Positions 1,546-23,082 of a stretch of 64,000 nucleotides of DNA are shown here, one piece after another. The stretch spans positions 1 through 64,000 of the forward strand of contig NZ_JARXHY010000006.1 in the NCBI RefSeq assembly GCF_031127815.1. Direction: 5' to 3'. Position 1 is the stretch's first letter. Every line of letters begins with the position of its first letter. The notes under the pieces were generated by a model that searched no databases, was not told where the DNA came from, and saw only the letters and a program-made list of their open reading frames with translations. Made by a program: the position numbers and the translations under genes. The DNA comes from Pelagicoccus sp. SDUM812003 (GTDB taxonomy: Bacteria > Verrucomicrobiota > Verrucomicrobiia > Opitutales > Opitutaceae).

Positions 1546-1600
1546 CGAAAAAATCCTTTGCACCGCTTGCGCAGACCCTTGAGCCGCCCATAAGCTCGCC

Positions 1601-2131: not shown

Positions 2132-3107
2132 ACAAGCGCAATACAAAAACGGGCGTAAGGTTGCTCCGATTGTATCCAAGGTCGGTCTCCAGAAGGGCTT
2201 GAAATACGCGGAGAATCCAGACGATCCGAATCATAAAGACAAGGTTGAGATACATGGTCCGCTCGGCTTTCGCTGCAGTTCGAAAGATGATTTTGCATCC
2301 CAGGCGGTAGAGAGATTTAAAGCTTATGAGCAGTCCAAGATCGGTACCGCTGGACGGAAGTCCAAAGGCGAGCTTGTTGAGCAACTTATCGTCAATCCTG
2401 ATCCTCTGTCCGACCTGACAGACTTTGAGCGTAGGCTGGTCATAAAAATAGTGGCAGATATGCTCGGTCCTGAGAGTGCTGTATTGGGATTTTGGCATGT
2501 TGGCATCAATGGCCGAAACCGAGATGATGCTCATGTGTTTATCGTAAACATCGTAAAATGCGGCGACCCGGCTCTCCGCAAAACTCGCCTGATCGACCGA
2601 GCTCCCAACATTCGCAACTACCGCGAGCTTTTGCGGCGGGTGGAAGATGAGATCGTAGCAGAAATCAACATACGGCGCTGCAAGGAAGGTCGGGATCTGC
2701 TACCGACAAACGAGGAAACTCGTTTGCAGCGTCAGAAAAAGAAGGCATGGAAGACGCTGCCATATCAGGTCGCCGAGCGCCTTGGTTTCACCGCGGCCCG
2801 CGTATCCAAAGAGTCTGTCACAAATGTACTCGTGGATCTTGGGTTCACGGTCTCTTGGGATTCGGCCCGCCAGAAAATGTATCTTGTCTATCCGGCGGAG
2901 GTGATGGGTAAGAAACGCAAGAAGCCGCGCGAAAGCACCCACCGGTGGAAAACTATCTGGCCTCAGATTATCAACACCTGCGACGACTATACGCGCCGAT
3001 TCAAAAAGATCCGTCGAGATCTCGAAGAGAAAAAGAAAAAGCTGGAAGAGGAGAAGGCTGCTGAAAAGCGTCGCGAAGACGAAGAGCGAAATGGTCCTGA
3101 ACGCTAG
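2121..3107 (+). CDS. Relaxase-like mobilisation protein
   Basis: A 328-residue basic protein. The segment FWHVGINGRNRDDAHVFIV (about residues 123-141) resembles the metal-binding histidine motif of MobA/VirD2 relaxases, where a strand ends in HxHxV after an acidic pair; here one His is replaced (DDAHVF), so catalysis is uncertain. The middle part has a possible winged-helix segment (VAERLGFTAARVSKESV), and the last 45 residues are a Lys/Glu-rich coiled coil. It overlaps the upstream RHH-like gene by 11 bases. Likely a relaxase or a derivative acting at the element's transfer origin; an element-encoded replication protein is an alternative. Confidence 0.5.
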   Translation: MLIKQAQYKNGRKVAPIVSKVGLQKGLKYAENPDDPNHKDKVEIHGPLGFRCSSKDDFASQAVERFKAYEQSKIGTAGRKSKGELVEQLIVNPDPLSDLTDFERRLVIKIVADMLGPESAVLGFWHVGINGRNRDDAHVFIVNIVKCGDPALRKTRLIDRAPNIRNYRELLRRVEDEIVAEINIRRCKEGRDLLPTNEETRLQRQKKKAWKTLPYQVAERLGFTAARVSKESVTNVLVDLGFTVSWDSARQKMYLVYPAEVMGKKRKKPRESTHRWKTIWPQIINTCDDYTRRFKKIRRDLEEKKKKLEEEKAAEKRREDEERNGPER

Positions 3108-3759: not shown

Positions 3760-4698
3760 ATGATTCAAACCAAACCACAACCCCGCTACTCAGGGCACGA
3801 GACCTTCGTTTGTCGTTACGCCTGGCTACCTAAAGTGGTAGGTGCGTTGAGCGGCAAAGACAACGGCGCGCTTTTCAAAGACGAGGACGAAGCAATGGTT
3901 CGCCTCGGAATCGGCAAGAACATGGTTCGCTCTGCGAAATTCTGGGCAGAGGCTGCACAGATCATCACCGATTCCCCTGAAGGCCACCGCCTAACACCGT
4001 TCGGAGAGAGGTTGCTCGGCAGAGAGGGACACGATCAGTATTTCGAGCAGCTCGAAACACTATGGCTTATCCATTGGAAGATCGCGACCAATTCCAAGCG
4101 CCCCCTCTATCATTGGGATCAAATGCTCAACCACTGGCATCGCTCAGAGTTTAGCGAGTCTGAAGCTAAAATATTCCTAGAACGTGGGCTGCCTCCCGAG
4201 CAAGCCAAGCGATCAAAGCGAACGCTATCTGACGGTCTAAGAGTATTTATAAACTCCTACGTCCAAGCAAAAGGAAAGAAAGGTGAGATCGGCGAGGACA
4301 ACCTAGATTGCCCGCTCGTCGAACTGGATCTGCTCCGATGGTCAGGCGACCGGATCAATAGCGACAATCAGCGAGAGTCCATTTATTCTTTCAACATCGA
4401 GGATAAGCCTTCGATTTCTTCAGAGCTGATAGCCTATTGCATCAATGACCTCTGGTCGAGCAGCCATCACCGAGCGAGTTCTTCTTTAGGATTTCGAATC
4501 GTATCGACTGAAGAGAGTAGCCCTGGGCAGGTATTCAAACTGCCGGAGGCTAGCATTCGGGCACATCTGGATGCTTTATCCTCAGTAACCAGAGGCGCTA
4601 TCGTTTTCGAAGAATCTCAATCTATGCAGCAAATCTGGAGACGCGGAAACGTCTCTGAAATGGACCTTCTTGACGCAATTTTCGCCGACTACCAATGA
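3760..4698 (+). CDS. sspB: SspB, DUF4007 DNA phosphorothioation protein
   Basis: A 312-residue DUF4007 protein. The family signature is at the N-terminus: RYSGHETFVCRYAWLPK (residues 8-24), then LGIGKNMVRSAKFWAEA. In characterised SspABCD systems the DUF4007 protein SspB is the DNA nickase that opens the strand for sulfur incorporation. The gene opens a plus-strand operon and overlaps sspC by 4 bases (ATGA). The start ATG at MIQTKPQ is chosen because it precedes the conserved segment and follows a long noncoding stretch. Recognised from family memory and context; DUF4007 also occurs in other defence clusters, but the sspC/sspD/sspA neighbours fit only the phosphorothioation system. Confidence 0.8.
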   Translation: MIQTKPQPRYSGHETFVCRYAWLPKVVGALSGKDNGALFKDEDEAMVRLGIGKNMVRSAKFWAEAAQIITDSPEGHRLTPFGERLLGREGHDQYFEQLETLWLIHWKIATNSKRPLYHWDQMLNHWHRSEFSESEAKIFLERGLPPEQAKRSKRTLSDGLRVFINSYVQAKGKKGEIGEDNLDCPLVELDLLRWSGDRINSDNQRESIYSFNIEDKPSISSELIAYCINDLWSSSHHRASSSLGFRIVSTEESSPGQVFKLPEASIRAHLDALSSVTRGAIVFEESQSMQQIWRRGNVSEMDLLDAIFADYQ

Positions 4699-7600
4699 GT
4701 TTCCCTTCCATTAGCAACTTGCTAAACGTAAACCAACGATTCCTCAGGTCAGTTAATCTCGAACGAGACTTTACTGACACCGAGGCTCTATCCGGATACA
4801 TCGTCACTTCGGAGATCACCCAGAACCTACAGCGAATTGGACGAAATCTACGACCTGAATCCGGCCAACGCGCATGGAGAATCACTGGTGACTTCGGGAC
4901 CGGCAAATCGAGCTTCGCCCTAGTGCTTGCAAACATACTCTGTCGTTCAGCCAAAAAGCTACCACGGGAGATAAAGCACCTTCGCCGCGAACTACCTATC
5001 CCTAACAACGCTCCCAAGCTTTTACCAGTGCTAGTGACTGGCTCACGAGAGCCAATGGCGAAAGCTATACTGAGGGAGTTGCTTTCGAAATTGGAGGCCT
5101 CGATCGATGGTCGAAAGAACTTGGTATCTCGCAGCAAAATTTCCGACGCACTTAGTTCAAGCGCTCTAGATGAGCGGCAAGCCATAAGACTTATTGAAGG
5201 CACTTCGAAAGAACTCGTCACCAAGAACCTATTCGGAGGTGTGCTGCTGGTTATTGATGAACTTGGCAAGTTTCTCGAGTTCGCTGCCTTGAACCCCGAA
5301 CAGCAAGATGTCTATTTTCTTCAAGTTCTAGCCGAGTCGTCTTGTCGGAGCGGAAACTATCCGGTTTACACTCTTGGACTCCTGCACCAAGGCTTCGCAG
5401 AGTACGCGGCGAAGCTTCCTAGTGTTTCACAACTAGAATGGTCCAAAGTTTCTGAGCGCTTCGAAGAATTCGTATTTTCCCAACCGCTAGCCCAAGTCAC
5501 GGCACTTCTGTCTCAGGCACTATCTTCAGACCTCGAGAATCAGAATATTCATGGTTGGAAAGGTCAGGCGAGAGGCGATATGGCCACAGCCATTGACCTA
5601 GGGCTGTTTGGTCCGAATGTTCCTAAAACAGCTCTTAAAGAACATGCCGTATCAATCTATCCGATACACTGCTCAGTTATTCCGGTGCTGGCGAAGTTCT
5701 TCAGGAGGTTTGGACAGAACGAGAGATCACTCTTCAGCTTTCTATTGTCATCGGAACCTTACGCCCTGCAAGATTTTGCGAGCAAGCAGCGGGCATCTCT
5801 GGAGACCATATTCCGGCTGTCAGATTTCTATGATTTTGCAGCAGCGAACTTTTCACATAGACTCAGCGGACAGAGCTTCCGCAGCCACTGGAATCACATC
5901 GACGCGGTTATCAGGAGCACGGGCAACGAGGAGCCAACGACCGTCGCCATACTTAAGACAGTCGGCATTCTAAACGTTATCGACGCTCCCGAGCTCGCAC
6001 CCACCTTCGAGGTACTGCACCTCGCGCTCGGGGATTCAGAGGGACTAGACCAGGAACTTCGAAACCTCTGCAAACGAAACCTTCTGTTCAATCGCGGAAG
6101 ATCGGGTTATGCACTCTGGCCATACAATAGCGTTAACCTGGAGCAGCGATTTGTAGAAGCCAGCGAAGCAATTTCCAAGGCAAGTCCAATCGCTGAAACC
6201 GTTCGGAAGCGCATCGACTCCAGACCAATAGTCGCACGGCGCCACTACATCGAAACAGGCAACCTTCGCTATTTTGAAGTCCTTCAACTCACCGCTTCTG
6301 AATTTTCTAAAAAAGCGGAAGATTTAGCCCCAACGCATCCGGCGGATGGATTGGTGGTTTCAGTTCTTTGCGAATCTAAAGCGGAAAGACTCCAATCAGA
6401 AGAAATTGCCACTGGCCTAGCAAAAAAGCTATCAACAATCATCGCGATCAGCCCACCGCTAGATGCTCTAACCAGCTCCGCCTTGGAGTTAGAGCGTTGG
6501 CTTTGGGTTGAGCGCCAAACACCCGAACTAAAGGACGATCGGTTCGCTGCGGAAGAAGTCTCGCGCCAAATAGCAACCAGCAGCCAAACGGTCGAAAACC
6601 GTATCCAAGAAATCGCAGGCATACGTGGAGTCGTCCGCAAGGAGTCCACGATCGCTTGGTATCATGATGGTGAACTCATCACGGAACGCCTTAGGTTTAA
6701 ATCGATTCAGACTTTCCTTTCAGACCTTTGTGACGAGCTCTTTACCAAAGCTCCCAAAGTTGCAAACGAGCTTATCAATCGCACCAATATCAGTTCAGCA
6801 GCAGCCTCTGCACGTCAAAAGCTCTTCAAGGGAATACTAAGTCAATCCGATCTGCCGTTACTTGGGTTACCTGAGGACAAGTCGCCTCCTGAAAAATCCA
6901 TGTACCTTTCTGTTCTGAAAGCAGGGAATATTCATATCCAAGATGACGATGGGTGTAGAATAGCTTTCCCAAATAAAGGAAAGCGGGGCGACCCCTTGAA
7001 CTTGAGGCCCGCTTTGGATGCAATAATCGCAGCTCTCGAAGAGCAGCCAGACAGAAGAGTTCCTGTAATAGAAATCTACGACAGGCTCAGGCTACCCCCA
7101 TTCGGGGTGAGGGATGGCTTGGTTCCTCTGCTGCTACTTACCGTGTTCACGGTTCACGAAAGCGAGATCGCGATATACGAAGATGATATCTTCCAAGCAG
7201 AAATTGAAGAGAACCTCGCGATGCGATTGGCGAGGAGACCGGAGACTTTTGAGTTTCAGCTTTGCAGAATCAACGGTGTCCGAAAGGAGCTCATATCAGA
7301 AATAGCGAAAACGATTAACACCGAGCACGCTGAACACACACATCTACTCTCAATCGTCCGCCCCCTTTGTTTGTTCATCGACCAACTTCCTGAGTACGTT
7401 CAAAAGACCGATAACTTGTCTGATCAAGCTCGTGAAGTTAGAAAAGCTATCGAAAACGCTCGCGAACCTTCCGACCTTGTCTTCAAGAGAATCCCACAAG
7501 CTTTGGGTATCGAACCGTCCGACAAGAAGAATGCATCTGTTGTCGGCCAAGAGCTCAGCAGAGTGCTCTTTGAACTCAGAAGATCATATCCCGAACTTCT

Positions 7601-8117
7601 ATCGGGTATGGCCAAGAGCATTACGGCGGCCTTCGCTTGGAAGGGGTCTTTCGAAGACTGGAGAAGATCTATTTCAGAACCCGCTGAGACAGTACTCGTA
7701 GGTCTTTCTGATACCGAGCTTCGGTCGTTTTGCTTCAAGCTTATCGACGATGTCACATCTGAAACGGAGTGGCTTGAGGCATTGGGCAGCATCATAACTC
7801 GTTGTCCTCCTTCTCGCTGGAAAGACAGGGACAAGGAAGCGTTCGAGGAAGAAATCAAGAAGCTCGCAGGCAAATTCAATCGCGTGCTCGCAACTTGTTT
7901 CGACAAGAATGGTTCTCTGCCAGATTCTGCGATACGTATTGCAATTACGCCTAAGAGTGGCCAAGAAAAAGACGTAGTGGTTTCTCTCTCCCCATCCGAA
8001 TCTCAAAAAGCAAAGAAGCTTCGTGAATCCATTGTTTCATTACTTCCGGATTCAAATGACGTTTCAATCGCAGCGATCTCTGAGTTGCTGTGGAAACTGA
8101 TGGAGGGAAAACAATGA
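4695..8117 (+). CDS. sspC: SspC, large P-loop ATPase of phosphorothioation
   Basis: A 1140-residue ATPase. Walker A is GDFGTGKS (residues 65-72) and Walker B is LLVIDELGKF (D188, E189). The rest is long and largely helical without motifs I can name. In SspABCD systems SspC is the ATPase partner of SspB and is needed for DNA sulfur modification. The start (MSFPSIS) overlaps the sspB stop by 4 bases and the 3' end overlaps sspD by 4 bases, so sspBCD is a tightly coupled unit. The position between the DUF4007 and DndC-like genes is the main support for the name. The exact mechanical role of the ATPase is inferred from the family. Confidence 0.75.
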   Translation: MSFPSISNLLNVNQRFLRSVNLERDFTDTEALSGYIVTSEITQNLQRIGRNLRPESGQRAWRITGDFGTGKSSFALVLANILCRSAKKLPREIKHLRRELPIPNNAPKLLPVLVTGSREPMAKAILRELLSKLEASIDGRKNLVSRSKISDALSSSALDERQAIRLIEGTSKELVTKNLFGGVLLVIDELGKFLEFAALNPEQQDVYFLQVLAESSCRSGNYPVYTLGLLHQGFAEYAAKLPSVSQLEWSKVSERFEEFVFSQPLAQVTALLSQALSSDLENQNIHGWKGQARGDMATAIDLGLFGPNVPKTALKEHAVSIYPIHCSVIPVLAKFFRRFGQNERSLFSFLLSSEPYALQDFASKQRASLETIFRLSDFYDFAAANFSHRLSGQSFRSHWNHIDAVIRSTGNEEPTTVAILKTVGILNVIDAPELAPTFEVLHLALGDSEGLDQELRNLCKRNLLFNRGRSGYALWPYNSVNLEQRFVEASEAISKASPIAETVRKRIDSRPIVARRHYIETGNLRYFEVLQLTASEFSKKAEDLAPTHPADGLVVSVLCESKAERLQSEEIATGLAKKLSTIIAISPPLDALTSSALELERWLWVERQTPELKDDRFAAEEVSRQIATSSQTVENRIQEIAGIRGVVRKESTIAWYHDGELITERLRFKSIQTFLSDLCDELFTKAPKVANELINRTNISSAAASARQKLFKGILSQSDLPLLGLPEDKSPPEKSMYLSVLKAGNIHIQDDDGCRIAFPNKGKRGDPLNLRPALDAIIAALEEQPDRRVPVIEIYDRLRLPPFGVRDGLVPLLLLTVFTVHESEIAIYEDDIFQAEIEENLAMRLARRPETFEFQLCRINGVRKELISEIAKTINTEHAEHTHLLSIVRPLCLFIDQLPEYVQKTDNLSDQAREVRKAIENAREPSDLVFKRIPQALGIEPSDKKNASVVGQELSRVLFELRRSYPELLSGMAKSITAAFAWKGSFEDWRRSISEPAETVLVGLSDTELRSFCFKLIDDVTSETEWLEALGSIITRCPPSRWKDRDKEAFEEEIKKLAGKFNRVLATCFDKNGSLPDSAIRIAITPKSGQEKDVVVSLSPSESQKAKKLRESIVSLLPDSNDVSIAAISELLWKLMEGKQ
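8102..8107 (+). promoter_or_regulatory. Ribosome binding site deciding the sspD start
   Basis: GGAGGG with a 6-base spacer to the ATG at 8114. It is one of the few strong Shine-Dalgarno sequences in the window and supports the start that gives a 4-base overlap with sspC. Confidence 0.7.
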
Positions 8118-8959
8118 ACCCGATAGAAGTTTCGTTTAATGACGGCCGCCCAGTTAGGCACGTACTCAACGTATCCGGAGGTAAGGACAGTTCAGCCCTC
8201 GCTTTGTTGATGGCGGGACGCGTCAAAGGATTCGAACAGTTTCGTATGGAAAACATGGAGTATGTTTTCTGTGATACGCAGAAAGAGCTCCCTGAAACCT
8301 ACCAATATCTCGCCCGCCTCGAAGCAGAGCTCGGCTCTAAAATCACGTATCTAAACGCGAAAGCTGGTTTTGATCATTGGCACAAGGTTTTTAACGGCTA
8401 CCTCCCATCACCTCAAAATCGATGGTGCACCAAGATGCTTAAGCTAAAGCCCTTTGAGGCACATGTTGGTCAAGACAATGTTGTTAGCTATGTGGGTCTC
8501 CGAGCAGACGAGGATCGAGTTGGCTATATTAGCAAAAAACCAAACATCAAAACGAGATATCCACTGAAAGAAGCTGGCTTTGACTATGATGGGGTCATTC
8601 AAATTTTAGAGGATAGTGGACTCGGTCTTCCGACCTACATGAACTGGGGCCGAACGAACTCTGGCTGCACATTCTGTTTTTTCCAAACTCCTTACGAATG
8701 GGTTAAGCTATACGAAACCTATCCGAAGTACTTCGAGCAAGCGATGGAGTACGAAACAATAGACCCCAGTGACCCGAACAAGCAGTTCACCTGGATGGAA
8801 AAAGCTCCCCTTAGTGCCCTCCTAGATCCGGAAAATAGAAAACGAATTCTTGAGGCTGGCATTAGGCAGGTACCTACCAAGGGAGACAATCGTCTCCTTT
8901 CAATATTTACAGGAAACAGCTCTCAGCGAAGTGAAGCCTGCCTTATGTGCCAGAAATAA
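8114..8959 (+). CDS. sspD: SspD, DndC-like PP-loop ATP pyrophosphatase (PAPS reductase family)
   Basis: A 281-residue adenylating enzyme. The PP-loop SGGKDSS lies at residues 21-27. Cysteines in RWCTK (C105), GCTFC (C185, C188) and the C-terminal ACLMC (C276, C279) fit the PAPS reductase/DndC fold, where four Cys can hold an iron-sulfur cluster. It would activate the DNA backbone phosphate for replacement of a non-bridging oxygen by sulfur supplied by SspA. I chose the ATG at 8114 rather than a start 24 bases upstream, because it makes an ATGA overlap with sspC and has GGAGGG six bases ahead. Its 3' end overlaps the next gene by 13 bases. Confidence 0.82.
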   Translation: MNPIEVSFNDGRPVRHVLNVSGGKDSSALALLMAGRVKGFEQFRMENMEYVFCDTQKELPETYQYLARLEAELGSKITYLNAKAGFDHWHKVFNGYLPSPQNRWCTKMLKLKPFEAHVGQDNVVSYVGLRADEDRVGYISKKPNIKTRYPLKEAGFDYDGVIQILEDSGLGLPTYMNWGRTNSGCTFCFFQTPYEWVKLYETYPKYFEQAMEYETIDPSDPNKQFTWMEKAPLSALLDPENRKRILEAGIRQVPTKGDNRLLSIFTGNSSQRSEACLMCQK

Positions 8960-11319
8960 AAAGCTTTCTAAACGTGTTTAAGGTATCAGCAAGAACCATA
9001 CTGGAACTAGGTGCCGAATTGATCAGCTCTGACTTGATTGCTTTTTATGAGCTAATTAAAAATGGGTTTGATGCAGATTCGAAAAACGGAGTTGAAATTC
9101 ATTTTGAGATTTTGTTGCGGCGAAATGATCATTTCGCTCTTAAAACAACCCTTCAAAAGAATGCACATTTAAATTCACTCAAAGAAGCTGCGATTTCTAA
9201 ATTATTAAAATCCAGCTCTAGTCAATACGCAGAGGAATTAATTGAATCCATCAGGCGTACCGATACCAAAGATAAACTAGATGAGATTCTAGATTATGCA
9301 CTATCGCTAAATCGTATTGTCGTAAAGGATACTGGTGTAGGCATGTCGAGAGAAGACTTAGTCGAAAACTTCCTCGTGATTGGCACTCCTTCAAGAAAGC
9401 GTTCTATAGACAAAGCAATCGCTAATTCCGACAAGTCGTCACCCTATCTTGGCGAGAAAGGTATTGGGAGACTGTCAGCAATGCGTCTCGGCAATAAACT
9501 CGAAGTAGTTTCGACGAAAAAGAAGGAATCACACTACAATAGACTCTCAATAGATTGGAATGAGTTTCGAGACCTCGATGCTATGATCGAAGATATTGAA
9601 GTGCATCCAATTGATGGAGGAAAAAAAGAAGATGCAGGCATTTCTGGTACAAGCATTGTTATAAGCGATCTCGTTGAAGATTGGTCACGCGATCGAGTCA
9701 TCCAGCTTGTCGAGCTGAATTTATCAAAGCTCACTGACCCCTTTGCAAGACAAAGGGACCGCCCGAGAGTTGTGGTCATATGGAACGGTGAAAGGATTCA
9801 AGTGCCATTCATGGACAAGAATCTGATCAAAAACGCCCATGCAAAAATCTCTGGTTCATGGGAATACAAAGAGAAGACCCCACATCTCAGATGCGAGATA
9901 TCAGCACTTGATCTTGGCTTTGAACATCCGGTAACGAAAGAAGAAAGGATCATTTCCTTAGATGACCTCCAAAGCTTGATAAGTGGTCCTAGCGCGACTG
10001 AAGTTCATGATGAAGCGATGAGAAGCATTGGGCCTTTTACTTTTGAAGTATACTGGTACAATCGTCGGAGACTCACGAAAATCGAAGCCATAGGCGATCA
10101 AAAGGCTGTTCGAGACCTACAAAGCAAGTGGTCAGGCGTGATGCTTTACAGGGACGGATTTAGAGTGTTTCCCTACGGAGAAGAGAATGATGATTGGCTA
10201 TCTCTAGACCGTAAAGCTCTTGGGCAAAAAGGCTATTTGCTGAATAAAACGCAACTTGTTGGAAGGGCGAATATTTCCAGAACGTTAAATCCTCAATTGA
10301 TTGATCAGACCAATCGAGAAGGACTAAGAGAAACTCCAGAACAAAAAATACTCTTAGAAGTAATGACGTTCTCTATTGATACTTGTTTGCGTGATCACAT
10401 CAAGGAGATAGAAAGAAGCTACAAGAGTCCGAAGGTCAGCTTGGACACGATAAAAACTAGAGAAGTAGATTTGCGGAGAAGGGCTAGCGTCGCCATAAAA
10501 TCTCTAAAGAAAAACGCTCCACCAGAATGTGCACCTGAGATTGAAGAACTCCAGCAGCTAACACTGGAGCTTTCCGCTTTGACCAAAGCCGCTCAGAAGC
10601 GTATCGACGAGGCTGAGAATGAAGCAAAGCAAATGCTAGAAATGGCGGGAGTTGGGTTGATGATTGAGGTTGTAGCACACGAGCTTGCGAGAGCGACAGA
10701 AGCGGCACTTGAGAATTTAGATCAACTAAAAAGCGTAGAACTAGCCACTCCCCAGCAATCGGCTGTTTCTTCACTTCGATCACATCTAAAAAGCCTTTCG
10801 AAAAGAATACGAATACTAGATCCTCTCAGTATCTCTGGTCGTCAAACAAAGGAAACCTTCAACTTAAAGCAGCTGATTGATGAGACAATTGAGGCTCACG
10901 AATCTCAGTTTAAACGACATGGGATTGATGTCATTTTCAATTCAAGCGAAGATATTGTTAAGATAAAGGCTGTTAGGGGGATGGTAGTTCAAATTCTCGA
11001 GAATTTGATTTCGAATTCCAAATATTGGCTAGAACTCAAATCTTCGAGAGAGCTCAAATTCCAACCAAAAATCGAGATCAGCATCACAAGAGATCCGCTC
11101 GAGCTGATATACTCAGACAACGGCAAAGGTATTGATCCTGATAATATTGATAGGGTATTCCATCCCTTTTTCTCACTCAAAGAAAATTCAAAGAGAAGAG
11201 GCATCGGTCTCTACATTGCACGGGAGTGTGCAAAATACCACGGGGGGGATCTATTTTTGTCCAACAAGAAAGATCCACAGACGCAGCGGCTGCACACGTT
11301 TGTACTAAACTTACCTTAG
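8947..11319 (+). CDS. GHKL double-ATPase with histidine-kinase-like C-terminus
   Basis: A 790-residue protein with two GHKL (Bergerat-fold) ATP-binding modules. The N-terminal one resembles Hsp90/MORC ATPases: N box ELIKNGFDAD (35-44), DTGVGMS (128-134), GEKGIGR (169-175). The C-terminal one resembles sensor kinases: an H-box-like helix VVAHELARA with H578, N box ILENLISNS (about 683-691), DNGKG (724-728), and a G2 box RGIGLYIAREC near 751. No membrane segment is seen, so it is cytoplasmic. It starts at a GTG inside the end of sspD (13-base overlap) and is followed 23 bases later by a receiver-domain gene, suggesting a phosphotransfer pair. Two 60-base stretches I counted (9061, 9181) have only 22 and 20 G/C. 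Input signal and substrate are unknown. Confidence 0.8.
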   Translation: MPEIKSFLNVFKVSARTILELGAELISSDLIAFYELIKNGFDADSKNGVEIHFEILLRRNDHFALKTTLQKNAHLNSLKEAAISKLLKSSSSQYAEELIESIRRTDTKDKLDEILDYALSLNRIVVKDTGVGMSREDLVENFLVIGTPSRKRSIDKAIANSDKSSPYLGEKGIGRLSAMRLGNKLEVVSTKKKESHYNRLSIDWNEFRDLDAMIEDIEVHPIDGGKKEDAGISGTSIVISDLVEDWSRDRVIQLVELNLSKLTDPFARQRDRPRVVVIWNGERIQVPFMDKNLIKNAHAKISGSWEYKEKTPHLRCEISALDLGFEHPVTKEERIISLDDLQSLISGPSATEVHDEAMRSIGPFTFEVYWYNRRRLTKIEAIGDQKAVRDLQSKWSGVMLYRDGFRVFPYGEENDDWLSLDRKALGQKGYLLNKTQLVGRANISRTLNPQLIDQTNREGLRETPEQKILLEVMTFSIDTCLRDHIKEIERSYKSPKVSLDTIKTREVDLRRRASVAIKSLKKNAPPECAPEIEELQQLTLELSALTKAAQKRIDEAENEAKQMLEMAGVGLMIEVVAHELARATEAALENLDQLKSVELATPQQSAVSSLRSHLKSLSKRIRILDPLSISGRQTKETFNLKQLIDETIEAHESQFKRHGIDVIFNSSEDIVKIKAVRGMVVQILENLISNSKYWLELKSSRELKFQPKIEISITRDPLELIYSDNGKGIDPDNIDRVFHPFFSLKENSKRRGIGLYIARECAKYHGGDLFLSNKKDPQTQRLHTFVLNLP

Positions 11320-11342
11320 GAACATTCTGATTTAGACTTAAA

Positions 11343-13235
11343 GTGAGTGTCTTTGAACGGAATTCGCTAAATAAAGCGGTAATAATCGACGACGCCTATG
11401 ATGCAGTTCCCACGGCAGAGGATCTAGCGAATCATCGACAAGAGCTTTATTCGTTTCTAGAAGATATAGAAGAGTCGGACAGCGATCTTTTGATAGAGCA
11501 CTATTCGAGCTTCAATGAACAAGACTGGGACGAGCTGATAGATTCCAACGACTTCATATCGATCCTTTATTCGCTGAAGGACCAATTAAAAAGCAGCTTT
11601 GCGTTAGAGATCTTTGAGGATTTTGATTCAACGCGACGTCACGACCTTACCATCCTCTCTAAGATTCAGAAGGATCTAGAATCCCTTGGCCTGCTGGTAA
11701 CAACAGCGGGGAGAAATGTATCATTAACAGAGGCAGATGCAGATATAATCATCATTGATCTCTTTTTGACACAAAGGCAAGGGTCCGACGACTACGCTAA
11801 ATCTGCTTCAATTTTGAAGAACCACCTTAAGGAGTGCTCCCCCAAGCCTCCAATTGTCATTCTGACCTCACGCAGTCCTCGGGTCGACCATCTAAAAGAA
11901 TCATTCAGAGATGAAGCTGGCGTTTCAGAATCGCTCTTTAGAATAGTTAAGAAGAGCGAGATTCTTCAGGGTGATAAACTGCAGCGAAAACTCAGGCGGC
12001 TTGCAACACACTACGGAGACGCTCAACGTCTTGTTGATTTTATTAATTCTTGGTCTTGTGCCATAGATGATTCAAGAAAGCAAATTGTAGAGTTATTGAG
12101 AAAACTTGATCTGACGGACTTTGCTCAACTTCAAAAGCTTCTACTGGTTAAAGAAAATGCACCCTTAGGCTCCTACCTCGTTGATCTTTTCGATCATGTC
12201 GCTCAATATCACATTGAGTCTAATGAAGCTCTTTCGAGATCAGCCAATCAACTAAACGAAATAGTAATAGAGAAATACCCGCCTCCGTACATTTCAGGCA
12301 AAAGAGAAACGCAGTCTTTCGTTCATAAGTACCTTTCTCAGGGGCCTAATAGACTTTGTTTGCCCAATTCCGCGAGTGTTTCTTACCAATTTGGTGATCT
12401 ATTCTTCAGGTCCCAAGAGACTCCACTTGCTTCATCAAAAAACAAATCTGTAATAACCTCAATAAAGCCGGACGAGGCTCTCCTTTTGCTCACCCCGCCG
12501 TGCGACCTGATGCGGGAGACGCCAAATTACCTCCTTCTGATTTTGGGAAATATAAGCAGGATAACACCTAGCACACCCCAACGCTCCTTCAAGCCCAGAA
12601 CGCATGCTTTTTATCATAATGAAATATTTTATTCGATAGAATGGGACGTAAAGTCACCTTTATCGGTTACAACAGAAGCCCTGGACTATGCACTGTCAGA
12701 TGGTGTAATTAGCAAGGTAGCTCGATTGAGAGCCCATCACACAGCCGAAATTCAGCAAAGACTCTTGTCTGATATTGGTCGAAGTGGGCTCGCCGCGCCG
12801 ATGCTGAAAACTTTTTCGGTATCGCTTGCCGTATACTACCCAAACACTGAAGGCAAACTTACAGCATTGAGAATAGAACATCCAGAGGGGAGTGCAGCGA
12901 TGCACATAGCATCCGAAAAATCACATAGACTTACACTAAGCGAAGATGCGTGTGATTCGATATATAGTGCACTGTGTGCTCTAGAAGACAACAGAATCCA
13001 TCCCAGCAGTCGATCAATGTACGGTGCGCTCAGGAATAGTGAATCACTGCTACTGTCGCTCGAGAAGGGTTTGGACTTCAAATGGATGGAGCAGGATAAG
13101 CCTCAGATAGTGCCCATTGCGGAAATGATAAAAGTAGCATTATTCGTAAACTGTCACAATATTGACGGATTGGTAATTCAACGTGGTGCGATCAGCGATC
13201 GCTCCATCGTATTCTGTCTAACCGAAGAACATTGA
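11343..13235 (+). CDS. Large receiver-domain protein, partner of the GHKL kinase
   Basis: A 630-residue protein with a divergent response-regulator receiver domain at the N-terminus. D16-D17 (VIIDDAYDA) form the acidic pair, D139 (IIIIDLFL) is the predicted phospho-acceptor, T175 (ILTSR) and K203 (RIVKKSEI) complete the site. About 90 residues are inserted between the first strand and the acceptor strand, much more than in CheY. Residues about 220-630 form a domain I cannot name; it includes LLLTPPCDLMRE near 380-391. There is no recognisable DNA-binding output. It starts at GTG 23 bases after the kinase gene and ends 31 bases before sspF, inside the ssp operon. Output could be protein-protein control of the Ssp machinery or an effector activity; both are inference. 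Confidence 0.7.
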   Translation: MSVFERNSLNKAVIIDDAYDAVPTAEDLANHRQELYSFLEDIEESDSDLLIEHYSSFNEQDWDELIDSNDFISILYSLKDQLKSSFALEIFEDFDSTRRHDLTILSKIQKDLESLGLLVTTAGRNVSLTEADADIIIIDLFLTQRQGSDDYAKSASILKNHLKECSPKPPIVILTSRSPRVDHLKESFRDEAGVSESLFRIVKKSEILQGDKLQRKLRRLATHYGDAQRLVDFINSWSCAIDDSRKQIVELLRKLDLTDFAQLQKLLLVKENAPLGSYLVDLFDHVAQYHIESNEALSRSANQLNEIVIEKYPPPYISGKRETQSFVHKYLSQGPNRLCLPNSASVSYQFGDLFFRSQETPLASSKNKSVITSIKPDEALLLLTPPCDLMRETPNYLLLILGNISRITPSTPQRSFKPRTHAFYHNEIFYSIEWDVKSPLSVTTEALDYALSDGVISKVARLRAHHTAEIQQRLLSDIGRSGLAAPMLKTFSVSLAVYYPNTEGKLTALRIEHPEGSAAMHIASEKSHRLTLSEDACDSIYSALCALEDNRIHPSSRSMYGALRNSESLLLSLEKGLDFKWMEQDKPQIVPIAEMIKVALFVNCHNIDGLVIQRGAISDRSIVFCLTEEH

Positions 13236-13266: not shown

Positions 13267-15117
13267 ATGAAATGGATAAGCTTTCTCCGTAAGTACGGCC
13301 CAATCTCTCGCAACGACAACATGTACGACGAGACCATACGTCGTTCGGCGAGTTGGGCTGGATTCGAGCCTATCAATTTCGAGCACCCGGCCGAGAAAGA
13401 GGTCCTGGACTGTTTCGAGATAAACGGTCGCTCGCCGGTTTCAGTAATTCTCACTGGAACAGCTGGGGATGGTAAAACTCACCTTTGCAGACAGGTCTGG
13501 AGCAAGCTGGGAGGATCTGATGAAGAATGGGCATCAGATGATCCTTACCTCCAATACGAGATTCCCAACTCTGAATACAGGATACACTTCATCCGAGACT
13601 TGAGCGGTTGGGCCCCTCAGCAGGGACTGGACTGGGAATCAGATAAGATCACCCTGCTCAGGTTGTTCTGCACCTCTATTCTACAAGCTGATTCAAAAGA
13701 CCTCTTTCTGGTTGCTGCAAACGATGGGCAGCTTGTTGAGGCCTGGAGGCGGCTACCTAATTTTCCCGAGATCGAACAGGCAAGAGAAAGCTTCGAGTCG
13801 CTCCTCGTTGAAGATAAGCGGGAACTCGAAGGTATCAGCCTTAAGATGTTCAATTTATCCCGTTGGAGCTCGTCTGAGATCTTTGATCGAGCATTCGATG
13901 CATTTGTCGAACATCCAGGCTGGCAAGCGTGTTACGACGAATCGGAGGGAGATCATTCGGCATTTGGCACTAATTGTCCGATTCGAAAAAACTACGAGCT
14001 CCTCAAAACACCGATTGTCCGAGAACGCCTTCGTTCGCTTATCGATCTTTGTCACCGCAACAACCTCCACCTACCTATCCGCCAGTTGCTTCTTCTCCTC
14101 ACCAACGCTGTGCTCGGTCATTCAGACTGCAATCAGGATAGGCTTATGCGACCGGTCGATGTTTCTCGAATCATCGAAGCAAAAACGGTTTCGAAGGCGA
14201 GCATCTACAACAATATTTTTGGAGGGAATTTATCCGAGAACCGTCGTAGCTCCATCACCGTTTTTGACTATCTTGAGCGATTCCAAATTGGATATGAAAC
14301 CACCAACAGAATCGATAGCATCCTAATATTCGGAGAAGACGATGAGCAGCTCGGTGGCTACTTCGATCAGTACCTAAAGTCCGATCCCTTTTACGGAGCA
14401 GATAAAATCTATTACGAGAGCAGGAACCAATATATAGAAGACGCTGAAGACGACACTGTTGCCACTAAGAGCTTCCTTGAGCTTCTCGCGTCTCAAAGAA
14501 GAGCGCTTTTCTTCAAAATACCAGACTCTGATGCAGAGGAGTTGAAGCTATGGGATCTAACCGTCTTCCGCTACGCCGGTGAATACCTGAAGGAAATCGT
14601 CTCCAGAATGGAGCACGAAAAATCGATCAGAAGCTCCATCAAGCATAGATTGATAAAGGGCTTGAACCGAATCTTTGCGGGTATGTTTGTCGAGACCGAA
14701 CGCGAACTCCTTCTCACTACGAGTGGACACTACTCGCAATCCAAGATCAGTCGGATTCTTAAGGACAGGATCTCCTCCCAGCTAAAAAACGGCGAGCAAG
14801 TCGCAATCGAGGGAGATTCGAATGGGAAGATCCTCTTCAATGTTTGCTTCGATCCTGAGACGGTAGAGAGCCTCGAACTTAACCTTGTCAGATACGAATT
14901 CCTATCGCGAGTTGCCGAAGAAGGCGCGTTGCCAGCCAACTTCTCAAAAGAGTGCTACGAGGACATTCTGGCGTTTAAATCCCGCTTGCTCGCGGTACAT
15001 GAGCTTCGGCGACAGACCGACGATAATTCCGATGATGACGACATTATCACCCTCAAGCTCATAGAAGTATCCGAACAAGGATCTTTAGATGACGGTTTTA
15101 TTGAAATCCGGACATGA
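13267..15117 (+). CDS. sspF: SspF, DptF-like P-loop protein
   Basis: A 616-residue protein with a Walker A ILTGTAGDGKTHLCRQVW (GTAGDGKT at residues 64-71). This P-loop and the gene order match the first gene of the three-gene restriction module of phosphorothioation systems (DptF in Dnd, SspF in Ssp). SspFGH is reported to damage DNA lacking the sulfur mark and to block phage replication. The C-terminal third is helical, with a Glu/Asp-rich end. The gene overlaps sspG by 4 bases (ATGA). G/C is visibly higher than in the two preceding genes (29 of 60 at 13441-13500). The name rests on P-loop similarity and synteny, so it could equally be called dptF-like. Confidence 0.65.
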   Translation: MKWISFLRKYGPISRNDNMYDETIRRSASWAGFEPINFEHPAEKEVLDCFEINGRSPVSVILTGTAGDGKTHLCRQVWSKLGGSDEEWASDDPYLQYEIPNSEYRIHFIRDLSGWAPQQGLDWESDKITLLRLFCTSILQADSKDLFLVAANDGQLVEAWRRLPNFPEIEQARESFESLLVEDKRELEGISLKMFNLSRWSSSEIFDRAFDAFVEHPGWQACYDESEGDHSAFGTNCPIRKNYELLKTPIVRERLRSLIDLCHRNNLHLPIRQLLLLLTNAVLGHSDCNQDRLMRPVDVSRIIEAKTVSKASIYNNIFGGNLSENRRSSITVFDYLERFQIGYETTNRIDSILIFGEDDEQLGGYFDQYLKSDPFYGADKIYYESRNQYIEDAEDDTVATKSFLELLASQRRALFFKIPDSDAEELKLWDLTVFRYAGEYLKEIVSRMEHEKSIRSSIKHRLIKGLNRIFAGMFVETERELLLTTSGHYSQSKISRILKDRISSQLKNGEQVAIEGDSNGKILFNVCFDPETVESLELNLVRYEFLSRVAEEGALPANFSKECYEDILAFKSRLLAVHELRRQTDDNSDDDDIITLKLIEVSEQGSLDDGFIEIRT

Positions 15118-16640
15118 TGACCCAACTCGAAGAAAGATACCCCGCTCCCATTCTAACCAATTCGAGCATGTGGATAGACGAGGCCATTTGGGGCCACCGT
15201 CTACATGACGAACAGTCTCCATGGTTGGTCTTCATGGAGTTTCTGAATGTATTTTTTCATGAATACAACGAACGTAGAGCACTCGAGGAACCGGAAGGTC
15301 CGAACTCGTTAAGCTACAAACCGCGGAAACGACTGCATCTTCGCAATATCCTTTTCAACAATCCCAAAATCAAAAGCATCCGACTCTCTTCGATGTCGGA
15401 TAGCCAAAAGTGGAAAGTTTGGCAAAAAGAGGCAGCAAAGTTCAAAGAGATAGGCAGTCCAAACATGGAGTACCTAAAGGAACACTACGAATCCTTTGAT
15501 GACTTTGCTGAGATAGTCGATCTGCTGCGCCAAACGAGCCTCGAATTAGCTTCGAACAAACGCTGGACCTCGAAGTTTGTATTTCCATATGGCGAGGATA
15601 GTCTGTACGAAGACCTCGATCAGAAAGCGAAAACGAACGATCGCAGATTCTTTGGCAGAACGGGTGAACTACTCTACCTGATGCTTTCAAGGAGTCAAAA
15701 GAAGGCTGAGCTTCTGCAGCTCCTCTCGAATCACTTGTTGCTAAAGAAGAATCCTTGGAATCGAATTGCTCGCACACTTCAACCCGAAGAAGTAGAAGAG
15801 TCGGTCGAGCCAAGGAGAGGATGTTACCTACCGTATAGGCGTAACGATAGTTTTGACCACCTTGCAGAAGACTGGATTTCAATTCTGAAGTTGGGAATGC
15901 CGGATTATGACGCACTGCCTTACCTTGTAACGCTCTCGGGACTGCACTTATTTCTATATAAGCTCAAGATTTCGAAACTCGTCATAGGTTCTGCTGATCC
16001 ACTTAGAATAACCTGCGAAATCGTTGCCCCCAAGAAATCACTGGTTAGAGAGATCTCGAACCTAGACTACCAACAGAACAATCTGATCTCAACGGCAGCT
16101 GTTACTGCTTATATCGAGCAGCTTGAAGAATCTGAGGAATGGCAGCTGGCCTGCAAATCGCATGACCCATTCTTGGAGTGTAAGAACCTCCTGATAGATC
16201 GTCTTAAGTGGGGAGAGAAATACGAAGGAGCTGCAGACCCCAGTTCTCTCATTAGACAACTGAAATCCGGAGCGAGCAAACGCCACAAACAACACGTAGC
16301 GAACATCCACAGAGTCTTTGGCAGGGAGATCGGCTTGATATCAAAGCGAGGCACAAATCGTCTGAGGTATGCACCCAACGATGATCTACTGAAGACCCTT
16401 GTCTTTTCGAACGTGGAGAGCCGAACTGAACTAAGTGAGTTCCTCAATCGAATCTGGGAGCGGTACAGTTTTCTAATTAGCGACAAAGAAGCTGATAAGG
16501 TTCTCTCTGACGAGGAATTCGACAAAAAGGCGTTTCAAGCTAACGCTCGACGGCTTGAACAAAGACTTACTGGTCTAGGATTAGTCAAAAGGCTCTCAGA
16601 TGGTTGCGCCTACGTAATCAACCCCTTCACGCAAAACTGA
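15114..16640 (+). CDS. sspG: SspG, DptG-like restriction module protein
   Basis: A 508-residue protein without motifs I can name. It is mostly helical and rich in charged residues, and has no signal peptide or membrane segment. It is the middle gene of the sspF-sspG-sspH set: its start overlaps the sspF stop by 4 bases and sspH begins 1 base after its stop. Length and position match DptG/SspG, which is needed for the interference activity of the module. The assignment is by synteny more than by sequence. Confidence 0.55.
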   Translation: MMTQLEERYPAPILTNSSMWIDEAIWGHRLHDEQSPWLVFMEFLNVFFHEYNERRALEEPEGPNSLSYKPRKRLHLRNILFNNPKIKSIRLSSMSDSQKWKVWQKEAAKFKEIGSPNMEYLKEHYESFDDFAEIVDLLRQTSLELASNKRWTSKFVFPYGEDSLYEDLDQKAKTNDRRFFGRTGELLYLMLSRSQKKAELLQLLSNHLLLKKNPWNRIARTLQPEEVEESVEPRRGCYLPYRRNDSFDHLAEDWISILKLGMPDYDALPYLVTLSGLHLFLYKLKISKLVIGSADPLRITCEIVAPKKSLVREISNLDYQQNNLISTAAVTAYIEQLEESEEWQLACKSHDPFLECKNLLIDRLKWGEKYEGAADPSSLIRQLKSGASKRHKQHVANIHRVFGREIGLISKRGTNRLRYAPNDDLLKTLVFSNVESRTELSEFLNRIWERYSFLISDKEADKVLSDEEFDKKAFQANARRLEQRLTGLGLVKRLSDGCAYVINPFTQN

Positions 16641-16641
16641 T

Positions 16642-19600
16642 ATGAGCCCCAAAGAGATTCTAGGCAAAGTCGCTGCGAGCTATCTTCGTGACAATTTTGA
16701 CGACAGTGAGGAAGGAACCGCCCGATTCCTCTTAGACTGTTTAACAGCAGAGCAAACCGCGGCAGTCGCCAAAGCCGTTTTGGGTAATCCAGAGCTCTCA
16801 CCAAAGGTCGAAATTAAGTTACCCAAGCATTTCCTTGAGAATTTAGGACTCCCGGAGGAGGTGCTAACCAAGGAGAGAACAACCTATTACCGCAACGCAG
16901 CATGCTCCAAGCCTGCTCTCCTGGTGGCTAACGTTGGCGATGATGAACAGCAGTCATTGAAGGAGTTGGTTCCCATCGGACAGCCTCAGCTACAGAACCA
17001 CCCAGAAACGTGGGTAAAAGTAGCCGCTGCGAATTCGCACCTGTCAGAGGATCATATGATTTGGTGGGAAAGATCGCTCAAAGGTCTGATAGAAGCGAAA
17101 CCCGTTTCCCTTGATCAATTCAGCAATTTTGTCGCGGCAACTCTCTCGGCGAATTCTGATGGGGGGCATCCAATAAAGAAAGCCATTGGCTATAGCCTAC
17201 CGGAACTGCATCTACCACGGGACACGAATTTCTTCGAGTCCCTTGATGAGACCACTTCACGTCATACTTCGCGTTGGAAGGCTCTATTCAATACAGCGAT
17301 CAAAAGACGTAGTTGTTTTTTGTATAAACAAACACCGAGTCAGGGTCTCCTCGAAAAGGATAAGCTGAACGAGACTTTCGAAAAGGTGAAAGATTCGATA
17401 CCGGAGGAGATCCACCCAGTCATCGAGGAGTACATTGAAGCACCAAGCGGATGGAACGAGCAAGCCAAGCGTCTCGCTGAATGCGAATGGGAAGATGTGT
17501 TGCCCCTCTTCGATGGTTTAAAGCGAGAAAAATTCAACTTAGGAAAAGCAACTCGTTCGTTTTTCGAAGACTCGAATCCCGAGGCCCTTAGCGAAGACGA
17601 TCAGGAGTATCTCGAGAGACTAGAAGCTCGAAGGACAACAGAGTCCAACGAAGAAGATGAATCGTTCTACCAAGAGCATAGCAACGAGCTTAAAGAGGAT
17701 GTCGCGCTCAAGGCAAAGTGGGATAAGTTTATTTTTGGAAATGCGATTGAGGCGGAAGATCTTTTCGTCGGACTCGCCCAATGCTTTCAGTTTCTCTTCG
17801 ACCAGAATCTAGAAACGAAATCAAAGACACTTAGTATCCGATCAGACAAAAGATTTCCAAAGGATCTTCGCCAGCTGAACACTGATGCTGGGTTGTATTT
17901 TTCTTTCAGATACAAAGAGCTCTCTCGTTTTCTCGGAGGTAATGTCAAATGCGAGTTCGGGGAACTTTTCAACTACGAAGATCATGACAAAAAATGGAGG
18001 GAAAGCGGTAGGAAAGGATATCCCAACCGTTCGAAATCTAAGAACGCCACCCAAATAAAGTTCTACCTTGAACTAGAAGCAGAGCTCCTCCACGGAAGCC
18101 CTCAAACGTTCACAACTCAACTAGTTTGGAAATTCAACCCCAGCACAATTGCTTCCGAGCTCAGAGATGATTGGCAGAGGCTCGCTAAGAAGCCGTTCAT
18201 AAGATCCCAGACGACGCGCGAGTCCGTGAGTGGGAAAGGAAGATTTCAGACAGTCGCGCTCGACAATGTCGCAACCCTGCAACCTTCGTACGACAAAGAC
18301 CGAGGATCGCTTGTCCCAGTTTACGAGAAGGGCCGAGATGTGGAGCTCCTTTGGCGTAGAAACTTAAAGCAGGCGCTCGACTCCGGCCTCATCACGAAAG
18401 AGACTTTCGAACTACTCGGTACACATTTTGACACTTTTTCGAAATCATATACCAACGCGTTGCATGAGTGCATGACGGATGGCCTTCTCGCGACAGATTC
18501 GCTCCTCCAGCAGTTTACTGATTACTCTTCGCTACTAGAGTCTGTTTTTTCCAATGCTCAAGGAGATCGAAATTCTGAACTGTTACTACGACCGCTTCTC
18601 TACATCGGAGTTACCCATGTTCATGGTGGTCCCATAACCGCAATAGTCGCTCCGTGGCATCCGCTTAGGCTCGCCGCATTCGCAAACAAATCCCTCATTG
18701 TATCGAAATTGATGCGACAGCTGATGTCGTCATCGCAGGTGTACTTTGGCGACACACGATTGTATTTCTCAGAACTGGTCGCTGATTTGAATCACGTTTT
18801 TTATCCTGAAGTTATTGTCGCTTGGGATGATGAGAAGCCAGAGCTTCTGACAGTTACTGACAACTACTTGGGATATTCGCTTCACGAGCCTCCAATCGCC
18901 GCACAGGATTCATATGCCGATACAAATGAAAATCCGATTCACGGAGCAAATCGGATTCTGGAAATTCTAAAAAGGTATCTTTCTCTTCATCCGCACGAAC
19001 AAGCAAACCTATCGGTCGTTCTGTATAATTGTGACTCTGCTCGATTGCCTCAAACCATTGTAGACAAGGTTCAAGAACTTCATGAAGACGATGGCGATTT
19101 GCGCTGCCAAGTGGTCTTGCGGCATCGCGATGGAACTAAACTTCGTCAGCTTTACGAGAGCATCATAGAGTCATCGGGGAGCGATATAGATTCTTACGTT
19201 GCGAGTGAAGCATCCTCTGACTTCATGGCGCGACTACGAATCGGTATTATGGCAGACCAAGCACCTCCGCCAGACGAGGGCGATGGGCCACCAATCGATG
19301 TGGTATTTCTACAAGATGTTATTGCTCGCCATGCTCAACTCGACTGGTACCCGGAAACCACGAAGCCAATTCCAGTATCAGAATGGGTTCCGCAGCGGTG
19401 GTCAAAGAGACGGCCTGCAGCAAAAGACGACCTAAAGTCAGTCGTGTACCTTTCAAGCCCGGTCGCTCCGGTTGAGGGATGGAACTACCTAACCGCCATC
19501 ACAACCTTCTTCCGACCCGATTGGGACCAAGGCCCTGAGAAGCGCTTGATCCCTGCCAGACAACTCAACTTCCGCGATCCAACAACAAAGGAGATTTTTG

Positions 19601-21891: not shown

Positions 21892-23082
21892 TTAGAACAA
21901 TTCTCGAAATAGCACTATTTCATTGATCAGCTTCTCTATCTCTTCGGAAGTATTATCGAGACCGAAGCTAATTCTCACCGATTCCGACGCCCTCTCGTGT
22001 GATCCAGTCATGGACAAAACTACATGCGAGGGGGTGATAGCTTCTTCAAGACAGGCAGAACCGGAGGACACGCAAATGCCTCGTTGGTCCAAATAGGTGA
22101 CAAGCGCGTCGCTATCTAAACCTGGAATATAGACATTCGACGTGTTCGGTAGTCTGATCGCTCCTTGTCCGTTAACGTCAACATCCGGAATTCTTACGGC
22201 CAGCCGAGATTCGAACTCGTCTCGTAGCTTCTTGATTCGAAGAATCTCGGCCTGAGCTTTATCAGTCGATCGGATCGCTAGTGCTTTGGCGAGTCCAACT
22301 ATCGACGCGACATTTTCTGTTCCCGCACGTAGGCCGTTCTGCTGTTTGCCACCGTGTAATAGAGGTACGAAATCCCCCGAATTCCTAATCAACAAACCTC
22401 CTATGCCCTTCGGAGCTCCGAATTTGTGACCACTAAAGGAGAGGAAATCTGCACCAAGGTCATCGAACGAAATTGGTGATTTTCCCACAATTTGAACTGC
22501 ATCCAGATGAAGCAAAACGCCGACTTCTCGACAAATAGCTGCGATGTCTCTCGCGGGAAGCACAACTCCGGTTTCGTTGTTACCCCAAATAACGGATACA
22601 ACACATGTTGATGCGCGAATATGCCGCTGCACTTCAGCTAAATCTAGCTCACCCGTCCTAGATGCGGGGAGATAGGTAACTTCGGCTCCGTGCATGTTCT
22701 CCAAAAAGCGACATGTGGAAATGGTAGCTGAATGCTCTACAGATGTAGTTAATATGTGATTACATCCATGGTCTCTGCCTGAGAAAAAGGCAGAACAGAT
22801 AGCCGTATTTATTGATTCTGTCGCACCGCTGGTGAATACAATGCTGCCTGCGCTGCAATCGAGCACACCGGCTATCGCGTCCTTGGCTTCTTCGATCGCC
22901 TTTCTCGCACTCCGGCCGAGCTGATGGCCACTTGATGGGTTACCGTATGTGCGCCCTAGCCATGGCAGCATGGCATCTAGAACCTCCTTTTCGATTGGAG
23001 ATGTGGCATTATGGTCTAAGTAGATCAAGGGGTACAGATCAGCAGATTTTGACTTGATGCTGCAAGCGCTAGTTCGACCCAC
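21892..23082 (-). CDS. sspA: SspA, IscS/NifS-type cysteine desulfurase
   Basis: A 396-residue PLP-dependent cysteine desulfurase. YLDHNATSP opens the fold, the PLP lysine is in SFSGHKFG (K220) and the catalytic cysteine is in SSGSACLEE (C344). It would take sulfur from L-cysteine and pass it as persulfide to SspD for DNA phosphorothioation. The reading frame starts at GTG within the last 14 bases of the methyltransferase gene upstream, so the two genes form a two-gene unit on the minus strand, convergent with the ssp operon. About 20 residues precede the conserved core, so the true start could be slightly later. A housekeeping IscS is an alternative, but the context makes SspA much more likely. 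Confidence 0.85.
   Translation of the reverse strand: MGRTSACSIKSKSADLYPLIYLDHNATSPIEKEVLDAMLPWLGRTYGNPSSGHQLGRSARKAIEEAKDAIAGVLDCSAGSIVFTSGATESINTAICSAFFSGRDHGCNHILTTSVEHSATISTCRFLENMHGAEVTYLPASRTGELDLAEVQRHIRASTCVVSVIWGNNETGVVLPARDIAAICREVGVLLHLDAVQIVGKSPISFDDLGADFLSFSGHKFGAPKGIGGLLIRNSGDFVPLLHGGKQQNGLRAGTENVASIVGLAKALAIRSTDKAQAEILRIKKLRDEFESRLAVRIPDVDVNGQGAIRLPNTSNVYIPGLDSDALVTYLDQRGICVSSGSACLEEAITPSHVVLSMTGSHERASESVRISFGLDNTSEEIEKLINEIVLFRELF

Follow-up and report, generated by a model that had tools for sequence, protein, structure and literature searches.

What is a two-component-like gene pair doing between the modification and the restriction halves of a DNA phosphorothioation (PT) operon? 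The question is raised by Pelagicoccus sp. SDUM812003, in which the window analyzed here (64,000 nucleotides of contig NZ_JARXHY010000006.1, positions 1 to 64,000 of the forward strand, assembly GCF_031127815.1) holds the order sspB-sspC-sspD, a histidine kinase (HK), a receiver protein (RR) and sspF-sspG-sspH, with a likely sspA convergent at the far side. A first-pass annotation, made from the sequence alone, had placed a kinase and receiver pair at 8947-13235 between sspBCD and sspFGH, and this was confirmed. Our comparative analysis revealed that the pair is a recurrent companion of Ssp genes, and with moderate confidence we regard it as a cytosolic signaling module of the PT modification half, in which a phosphorelay sensing the state of DNA would end in an output by RR.

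Domains and conserved residues of the pair

The first-pass annotation described HK as an Hsp90/MORC-like ATPase joined to a histidine-kinase-like ATPase with H578, and both folds and their catalytic residues were borne out. Pfam recognized HATPase_c_3, HEF_HK and HATPase_c, all above cut-offs. In the structure model, residues 1-493 are predicted to adopt the GHKL plus S5-like transducer fold of MORC/Hsp90-type ATPases and residues 560-790 a histidine-kinase fold, with a helical linker at about 494-558, a DHp segment at about 559-625 (the low-confidence part of the model) holding H578, and the catalytic ATPase domain at 633-790. The H, N, G1, F and G2 boxes of histidine kinases are all present, and H578, N686/N690, D724/G726/G728, F738 and G752/G754 are invariant in 66/66 aligned HKs. 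In PHROGs, HK matched only families of unknown function and one kinase family.

RR comprises a divergent receiver (about 10-215), a middle part (about 215-330) and a C-terminal output domain (about 340-496), boundaries that come from alignment and not from a structure model. The conservation alignment has 65 rows, the window RR and 64 of the 82 found. D16, D17, D139 and K204 occur in 65/65 and S176 in 64/65, with T in the remaining one, so that the set expected of a two-component receiver (acidic pair, acceptor Asp, Ser/Thr, Lys) is present and the earlier call of a divergent receiver, with D139 as its likely acceptor, is supported. PHROGs and a phage collection gave no match for RR, and among 95 close-relative genomes RR was found only in that of the window itself.

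The C-terminal part carries the motifs PxCDL (C387, D388) and RLR..ALxLQQ..LGRVG (R461, R463, Q471, R480, G482), of which C387, R480 and G482 are invariant over the 65 rows, as are G351 and G402; D388, W434 and R461 each occur in 59 rows or more. The first-pass annotation could not name this region, and it still has no relative in PDB, Pfam or PADLOC (any one Pfam or PADLOC family matches at most 3/65 RRs, best E weak); however, a motif now ties it to Response_reg_2 proteins beside C5 methylases. The RLR..ALxLQQ..LGRVG stretch is common to three such proteins (profile alignment probability 94.7%, E 5.6e-8, 33 columns), which also carry PACDL or RCD, so this region is probably an output domain that recurs across a broader family. 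A profile search with this domain matched in 5/316 genomes: that of the centre, one with a match to the C-terminal end of one of these Response_reg_2-type proteins (G1233; 2.1e-4), a 222-residue open reading frame (ORF) with the same motif, an unrelated ORF and one weak hit. Three further genomes known to encode receiver proteins of this kind, G1178, G1242 and G1341, are absent from these results, their presence among the 316 not having been shown.

Linkage of the pair to Ssp genes

One scan of a genome collection (described as containing 84,980 species genomes), queried with kinase alignment A2, confirmed 359 HK relatives, of which the best 80 were kept and 279 left out; the RR alignment A1 had no stretch conserved enough to serve as a query. 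Because the query came from Ssp-linked kinases, the 80 loci are biased towards the Ssp type and their rates are valid for this lineage only. They span 13 NCBI phylum names, with 54 loci in Pseudomonadota. An RR homologue lies immediately 3' of HK in 75/80; for 75 loci a downstream ORF was called, and in 49 of these it shares 4 bases with the HK ORF. Among the other five, no more than 160 bases separate the HK ORF from the contig end in L031, L060 and L069, a piece of RR is present on the short contig L080, and in L041 RR is interrupted.

SspB, C or D was found within the fetched stretch in 72/80 loci, and any of SspBCDFGH in 77/80. For the eight loci without SspBCD in the stretch, SspD was found in five genomes (in that of L088 on another contig), and the genomes of L025, L041 and L051 (a 4.4-kb contig) are without it. 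Furthermore, 16 plasmid records have an HK match at E<=1e-40, and the 12 that were opened (H11, H23, H24 and H25 lie outside this set) all hold the pair together with Ssp genes. The proposed tie to phosphorothioation genes is thus more than chance neighborhood, and within this lineage the pair is not one that lies mostly far from them.

The gene immediately 5' of HK is sspD in 40/80 loci (gaps of -71 to 206 bases), sspC in 13/80, and another gene or none in 27/80. The order sspC-HK-RR-sspD, with the pair inside the modification operon, recurs in 10/80, and SspF follows RR immediately in 4/80. Placement between the modification and restriction halves, as first described, therefore holds in the window but is one layout among several. 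Likewise, the overlap of HK with sspD is true of the longest ORF; going by its relatives, an in-frame GTG at 8974 is probably the true HK start, and therefore the overlap may be an artefact of longest-ORF calling.

The G+C content of HK and RR averages 4 to 5 points below that of SspC, being lower in 66/69 (HK) and 65/69 (RR) Ssp-linked loci. Recent insertion as the source of low G+C was rejected by this comparison.

Features of the phosphorothioation locus in the window are collected below. PADLOC gave 325.6 bits for SspB, 1229.7 for SspC, 312.4 for SspD, 703.4 for SspF and 640.5 for SspG. SspA and SspH were assigned without PADLOC, from the Pfam or FtsK domain, identity and position; the likely SspA matches Aminotran_5 at 2.9e-81 and has 33% identity to the SspA-labeled proteins of L007 and L009.

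Table. Genes of the Ssp locus in the window, with the basis of each assignment
Feature	Position	Strand	Basis
sspB (DUF4007)	3760..4698	+	sequence match
sspC ATPase	4695..8117	+	PADLOC
sspD (PAPS-reductase family)	8090..8959	+	sequence match
HK, 790-residue soluble paraMORC-type histidine kinase	8947..11319	+	Pfam, structure model, alignment
RR, 630-residue receiver protein	11343..13235	+	alignment-based domain boundaries
sspF	13267..15117	+	PADLOC
sspG	15114..16640	+	PADLOC
likely sspH, C-terminal FtsK-type ATPase domain	16642..21849	+	FtsK/EssC matches; place after sspG
likely sspA, class-V aminotransferase (cysteine desulfurase)	21892..23082	-	Aminotran_5 match, identity to SspA-labeled proteins; convergent with sspH

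A promoter and terminator scan was uninformative, its counts being no higher than in shuffles. SspG also matches, far below cut-off, MAD7 of a methylation-associated defense system (NCBIfam, 4.9e-11, 42 of 410 bits). On the 5' side of sspB, positions 334-3107 hold an AAA_25 ATPase and two unnamed ORFs, possibly the border of a mobile element. Beyond the locus, 26437-28791 encodes a likely surface protein of 784 residues that carries repeats of the Chlamydia-PMP, InlB-B-like and TSP3 kinds, and 36778-44028 is an ORF of 2416 residues whose G+C reaches about 0.63, compared with 0.45-0.50 for the Ssp part; this G+C step may mark the border of an island, somewhere from about 35 to 37 kb.

Co-divergence, output and proposed signaling

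Co-divergence was assessed as the rank correlation (rho) of distances over loci. HK and RR diverge together (rho 0.856, 80 loci; 0/200 permutations as high), as do SspB, C and D with one another (0.77-0.86) and SspF, G and H with one another (0.90-0.95), and SspBCD against SspFGH reach 0.49-0.79 (12-19 loci). HK or RR correlate with SspB or SspC at 0.61-0.65 (66-70 loci) and with SspD at 0.44-0.47 (72-75 loci), and with SspF, G and H at only 0.05-0.17 (19-23 loci). The pair is, in this light, a third module that goes with the modification genes and is exchanged between Ssp lineages, unfixed to any given one.

These values bear directly on the model of the first-pass annotation, in which the pair would be an ordinary regulator that senses infection and has RR switch the expression or activity of the restriction half. 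Kinase-receiver pairs commonly regulate, RR ends 31 bases before sspF in the window, the 4/80 loci with SspF straight after RR fit the same idea, and a like regulation was speculated for SspE in the available part of an Acinetobacter study (PMC7464106). Against this, SspF, G or H were found in at least 25/80 fetched stretches (which end within 10 kb), others having GmrSD-type, helicase-MORC-PLD or helicase-AAA_23 genes, and Pfam scans recognized no DNA-binding domain in RR. Since HK and RR divergence does not track SspFGH, gating of SspFGH alone is unlikely; the varied neighbors also speak against it, and we consider this model improbable.

The neighbors themselves, whose families were named by running Pfam on one member per cluster, deserve a brief description. 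A GmrSD-type gene was seen in 4/80 loci with one query, and a helicase in 13, seven times accompanied by HATPase_c_3 and PLD proteins and six times by an AAA_23 protein. The set of SF2 helicase, HATPase_c_3 protein and PLD-like protein recurs in L011, L039, L043, L045, L046, L054 and L055 (Pfam on that of L011), and standing beside Ssp genes and the pair it gives two MORC-like ATPases per cluster. In L020, L023, L025, L029, L037 and L042, a helicase, an AAA_23 protein of about 730 residues and a protein of 152-197 residues lie immediately 5' of the pair (Pfam on those of L020). An Mrr-type protein occurs in L021, whose cluster also includes L023.

Several observations weigh against a signaling module of the modification half, starting with the bias of the query noted above. 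In the eight loci with all eight genes, HK and RR still diverge together (0.79) and SspBCD with SspFGH (0.50-0.80), but HK against SspBCD gives 0.09 to 0.20, RR against SspBCD -0.11 to -0.01, and both against SspFGH -0.29 to 0.07, so that the tie of the pair to the modification half comes from gene order and from the comparison over more loci, which is less strict. Of 384 genomes sampled from the class of the window, 13 had SspD above 300 bits, and 3/13 have the pair, the window included; around a pair-bearing alphaproteobacterium, the pair was found in 0/8 other strong SspD loci (one weak SspD hit omitted; two of the eight on contigs below 11 kb). Most sampled Ssp loci being without the pair, Ssp therefore works without it. 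Pfam, moreover, called no family above cut-off in RR, the receiver included, and the output domain has neither a PDB sequence relative nor a Pfam or PADLOC family common to its members. As a separate observation, L154 (G216 contig 19) is an sspBCD locus with an SspC score near those of pair-bearing loci, in which ORFs of 345 and 289 residues stand instead of the pair.

The absence of the pair from most sampled Ssp loci, its failure to track either half in the eight complete loci, and the association of the wider family with restriction-modification (R-M) systems, as described in the available part of PMC8011034, would suit an independent cassette, for defense or addiction, that is simply carried along in Ssp islands. 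To this view, however, stand opposed the 10/80 loci with the pair inside the modification operon, the close spacing 3' of sspD in 40/80 and the correlation with SspB and SspC distances over 66-70 loci, and we assign it a low probability.

On the safest reading, the pair is a cytosolic phosphorelay that belongs to the PT modification module and takes its input through a MORC-like clamp. The analysis shows gene linkage in the lineage, conservation of catalytic residues, both HK folds, HK-RR co-divergence and the C-terminal motif common with the cytosine-methylation branch; phosphotransfer, DNA sensing and the nature of signal and output are what we infer. MORC ATPases close on DNA as a clamp. 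HK would be a fusion of such an ATP-driven MORC/Hsp90-type clamp with a histidine kinase, and the clamp half would most likely sense the state of DNA, be it foreign or unmodified DNA entering the cell or modified host DNA being lost or damaged. To do so it would close on DNA itself or on an Ssp complex bound to DNA, and this closure would drive autophosphorylation of H578 and transfer of the phosphoryl group to D139 of RR, and phosphorylated RR would switch its C-terminal PxCDL/RVG domain, the output, which may act on the Ssp machinery (modification versus restriction) or make RR itself the effector. The compound defense system of the first-pass annotation stands as a hypothesis.

The option of RR as effector finds some echo in distant relatives of HK, 20 of which were found on viral contigs. 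In a tree of 109 kinases, for which the program warned of long branches, 22 distant ones (19 from viral contigs and 3 from C5-methylase loci) split off with a Shimodaira-Hasegawa-like approximate likelihood ratio test (SH-aLRT) value of 100. A C5-methylase match is present in 17/20 viral-contig stretches (Pfam confirmed all three scanned), and in 10/20 loci a protein encoded 3' of the kinase carries RNxhxH, the motif of HEPN RNases. These ten loci are L098, L099, L100, L102, L103, L105, L106, L107 (in which the kinase gene is broken), L108 and L109, and all except L108 have the C5-methylase match. A search of viral contigs with the HEPN-type protein returned its own contig only. Together, such a MORC-kinase and its RNxhxH protein make up a candidate RNase of phages or prophages that a kinase would trigger.

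Because of these HEPN-type cousins, it is a serious option, albeit an unlikely one in our judgment, that RR is an abortive-infection effector whose toxic C-terminal domain is turned on by phosphorylation, as a second line should Ssp be overcome or PT lost. The RNxhxH motif of the viral-contig proteins is invariant in the eight aligned, one has a weak Pfam HEPN match, C5-methylase matches accompany them, and the Cys, Asp and Arg of the Ssp RR output domain, kept in nearly all copies, would suit an enzyme. On the other hand, Pfam and PADLOC scans recognized neither HEPN nor any other toxin domain in the Ssp RR, the HEPN call is a motif plus that single match (1/5 scanned, 7.4e-4, below cut-off), looser forms of the motif occurred by chance in three other ORFs, and half of the viral-contig loci are without it. 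The D139 stretch of RR aligns weakly with the acceptor Asp of the viral-contig receiver-HEPN proteins (probability 7%, E 0.005). A HEPN motif in the Ssp RR itself was considered and rejected, H466 varying among eight aligned proteins and lying outside the columns conserved in 75% of the 65 rows. The effector proposal is one form of the phosphorelay that we prefer; the probabilities of the alternatives overlap with it and need not sum to one.

A bolder and rather doubtful generalization is that of a chemistry-blind guard: one kinase-receiver design around a MORC-like DNA clamp, paired by branch with cytosine methylation or phosphorothioation, would read DNA modification or integrity and release an output, the HEPN-type RNase on some viral contigs and the PxCDL/RVG domain on chromosomes and plasmids. 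If true, it would be a two-component system with the epigenome itself as input. To our knowledge, how R-M-like systems sense infection or the loss of their own mark is largely open, and a phosphorelay accompanying SspBCD across many phyla with different effectors makes the question testable. The recurrence of the pair beside Ssp genes in many bacterial groups would fit an alarm or control built into the marking of DNA.

Comparison with known systems

Kinases beside Ssp genes have been noticed before. In the available parts of the texts, histidine kinase genes adjacent to SspE are mentioned in 211 Acinetobacter strains (PMC7464106) and a two-component system close to Ssp genes in clone 2 of A. 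baumannii (PMC12421847); there, the kinase takes a sentence or two, and the MORC half, RR and wider distribution are unnamed. In the one A. baumannii locus examined, L203, both HK and RR are of full length, their catalytic residues are conserved, and the two genes adjoin sspD-C-B; its RR is too diverged for the BLAST references, with T at S176 and with R461V and G482S in the output domain. Since L203 has this arrangement, the kinases of both papers, whose strains lie outside our comparison, are probably of the same family as HK. The first-pass annotation knew of no described system with this exact gene order, a claim that is only partly right in view of these reports and of the published kinase-receiver pair discussed below (PMC8011034).

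The described SspABCD-SspFGH system (PMC8092258) has the same modification and restriction genes as the window; it differs in that a term search of the available text finds no histidine kinase or two-component gene, with one occurrence of 'regulat' in the reference list. The paraMORC ATPases of R-M systems (Iyer 2008, PMC2292703) share the GHKL plus S5 ATPase half, to which HK adds a full histidine kinase; receiver, two-component and phosphorothio- are absent from its text. Within similarly partial coverage, terms on the themes of the pair are absent from PMC10853773, 'histidine kinase' appears only in other senses in PMC12839542 and PMC2292703, and PMC12137116 and PMC7159879 hold nothing on the pair. 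In PMC13092281, a figure legend names HATPase and REC as domains that occur in predicted, unvalidated defense systems, which may or may not include the pair. No experimental study of the pair was recognized in the literature searched, whose coverage mostly excludes subscription journals. Detocs consists of the proteins DtcA, DtcB and DtcC. No match of that name was obtained with PADLOC 2023, a release that possibly lacks Detocs.

Two less biased samples cover the HEF_HK family. It was found in 2/387 genomes of a phylum sample, both beside SspD and one being that of the window, and in 8/369 of a class sample, the centre genome included; in the latter, the other five loci over cut-off comprise three beside C5 methylases, one beside Ssp and one beside neither, and two below cut-off are also beside neither. 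Response_reg_2 gave no match in 19 relatives, with no positive control responding.

Among the closest known systems is the pair of HEF_HK kinases and Response_reg_2 partners of C5-methylase R-M systems, described in 2021 (Bellieny-Rabelo, PMC8011034), where a term search of the available text found no mention of phosphorothioation. The window pair differs in adjoining SspBCD instead of C5 cytosine methylases (DNA_methylase had no match among 12 window genes scanned with Pfam) and in its receivers, as Response_reg_2 (PF19192) matched neither the window RR at E<=1 nor any of the 65 RR members at E<=0.1. Both share a soluble HATPase_c_3, HEF_HK and HATPase_c kinase followed by a receiver protein, and three fetched receiver proteins (555-617 residues) have the C-terminal CD...RVG motif in common with RR. 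From these sequence features, the window pair appears to be a sister variant of the 2021 pair and not a member of it, a phosphorothioation branch of a known kinase-receiver family of putative function. This view puts into one frame two published fragments, the R-M-linked pair described in 2021 and the kinase found near Ssp genes in Acinetobacter without an explanation.

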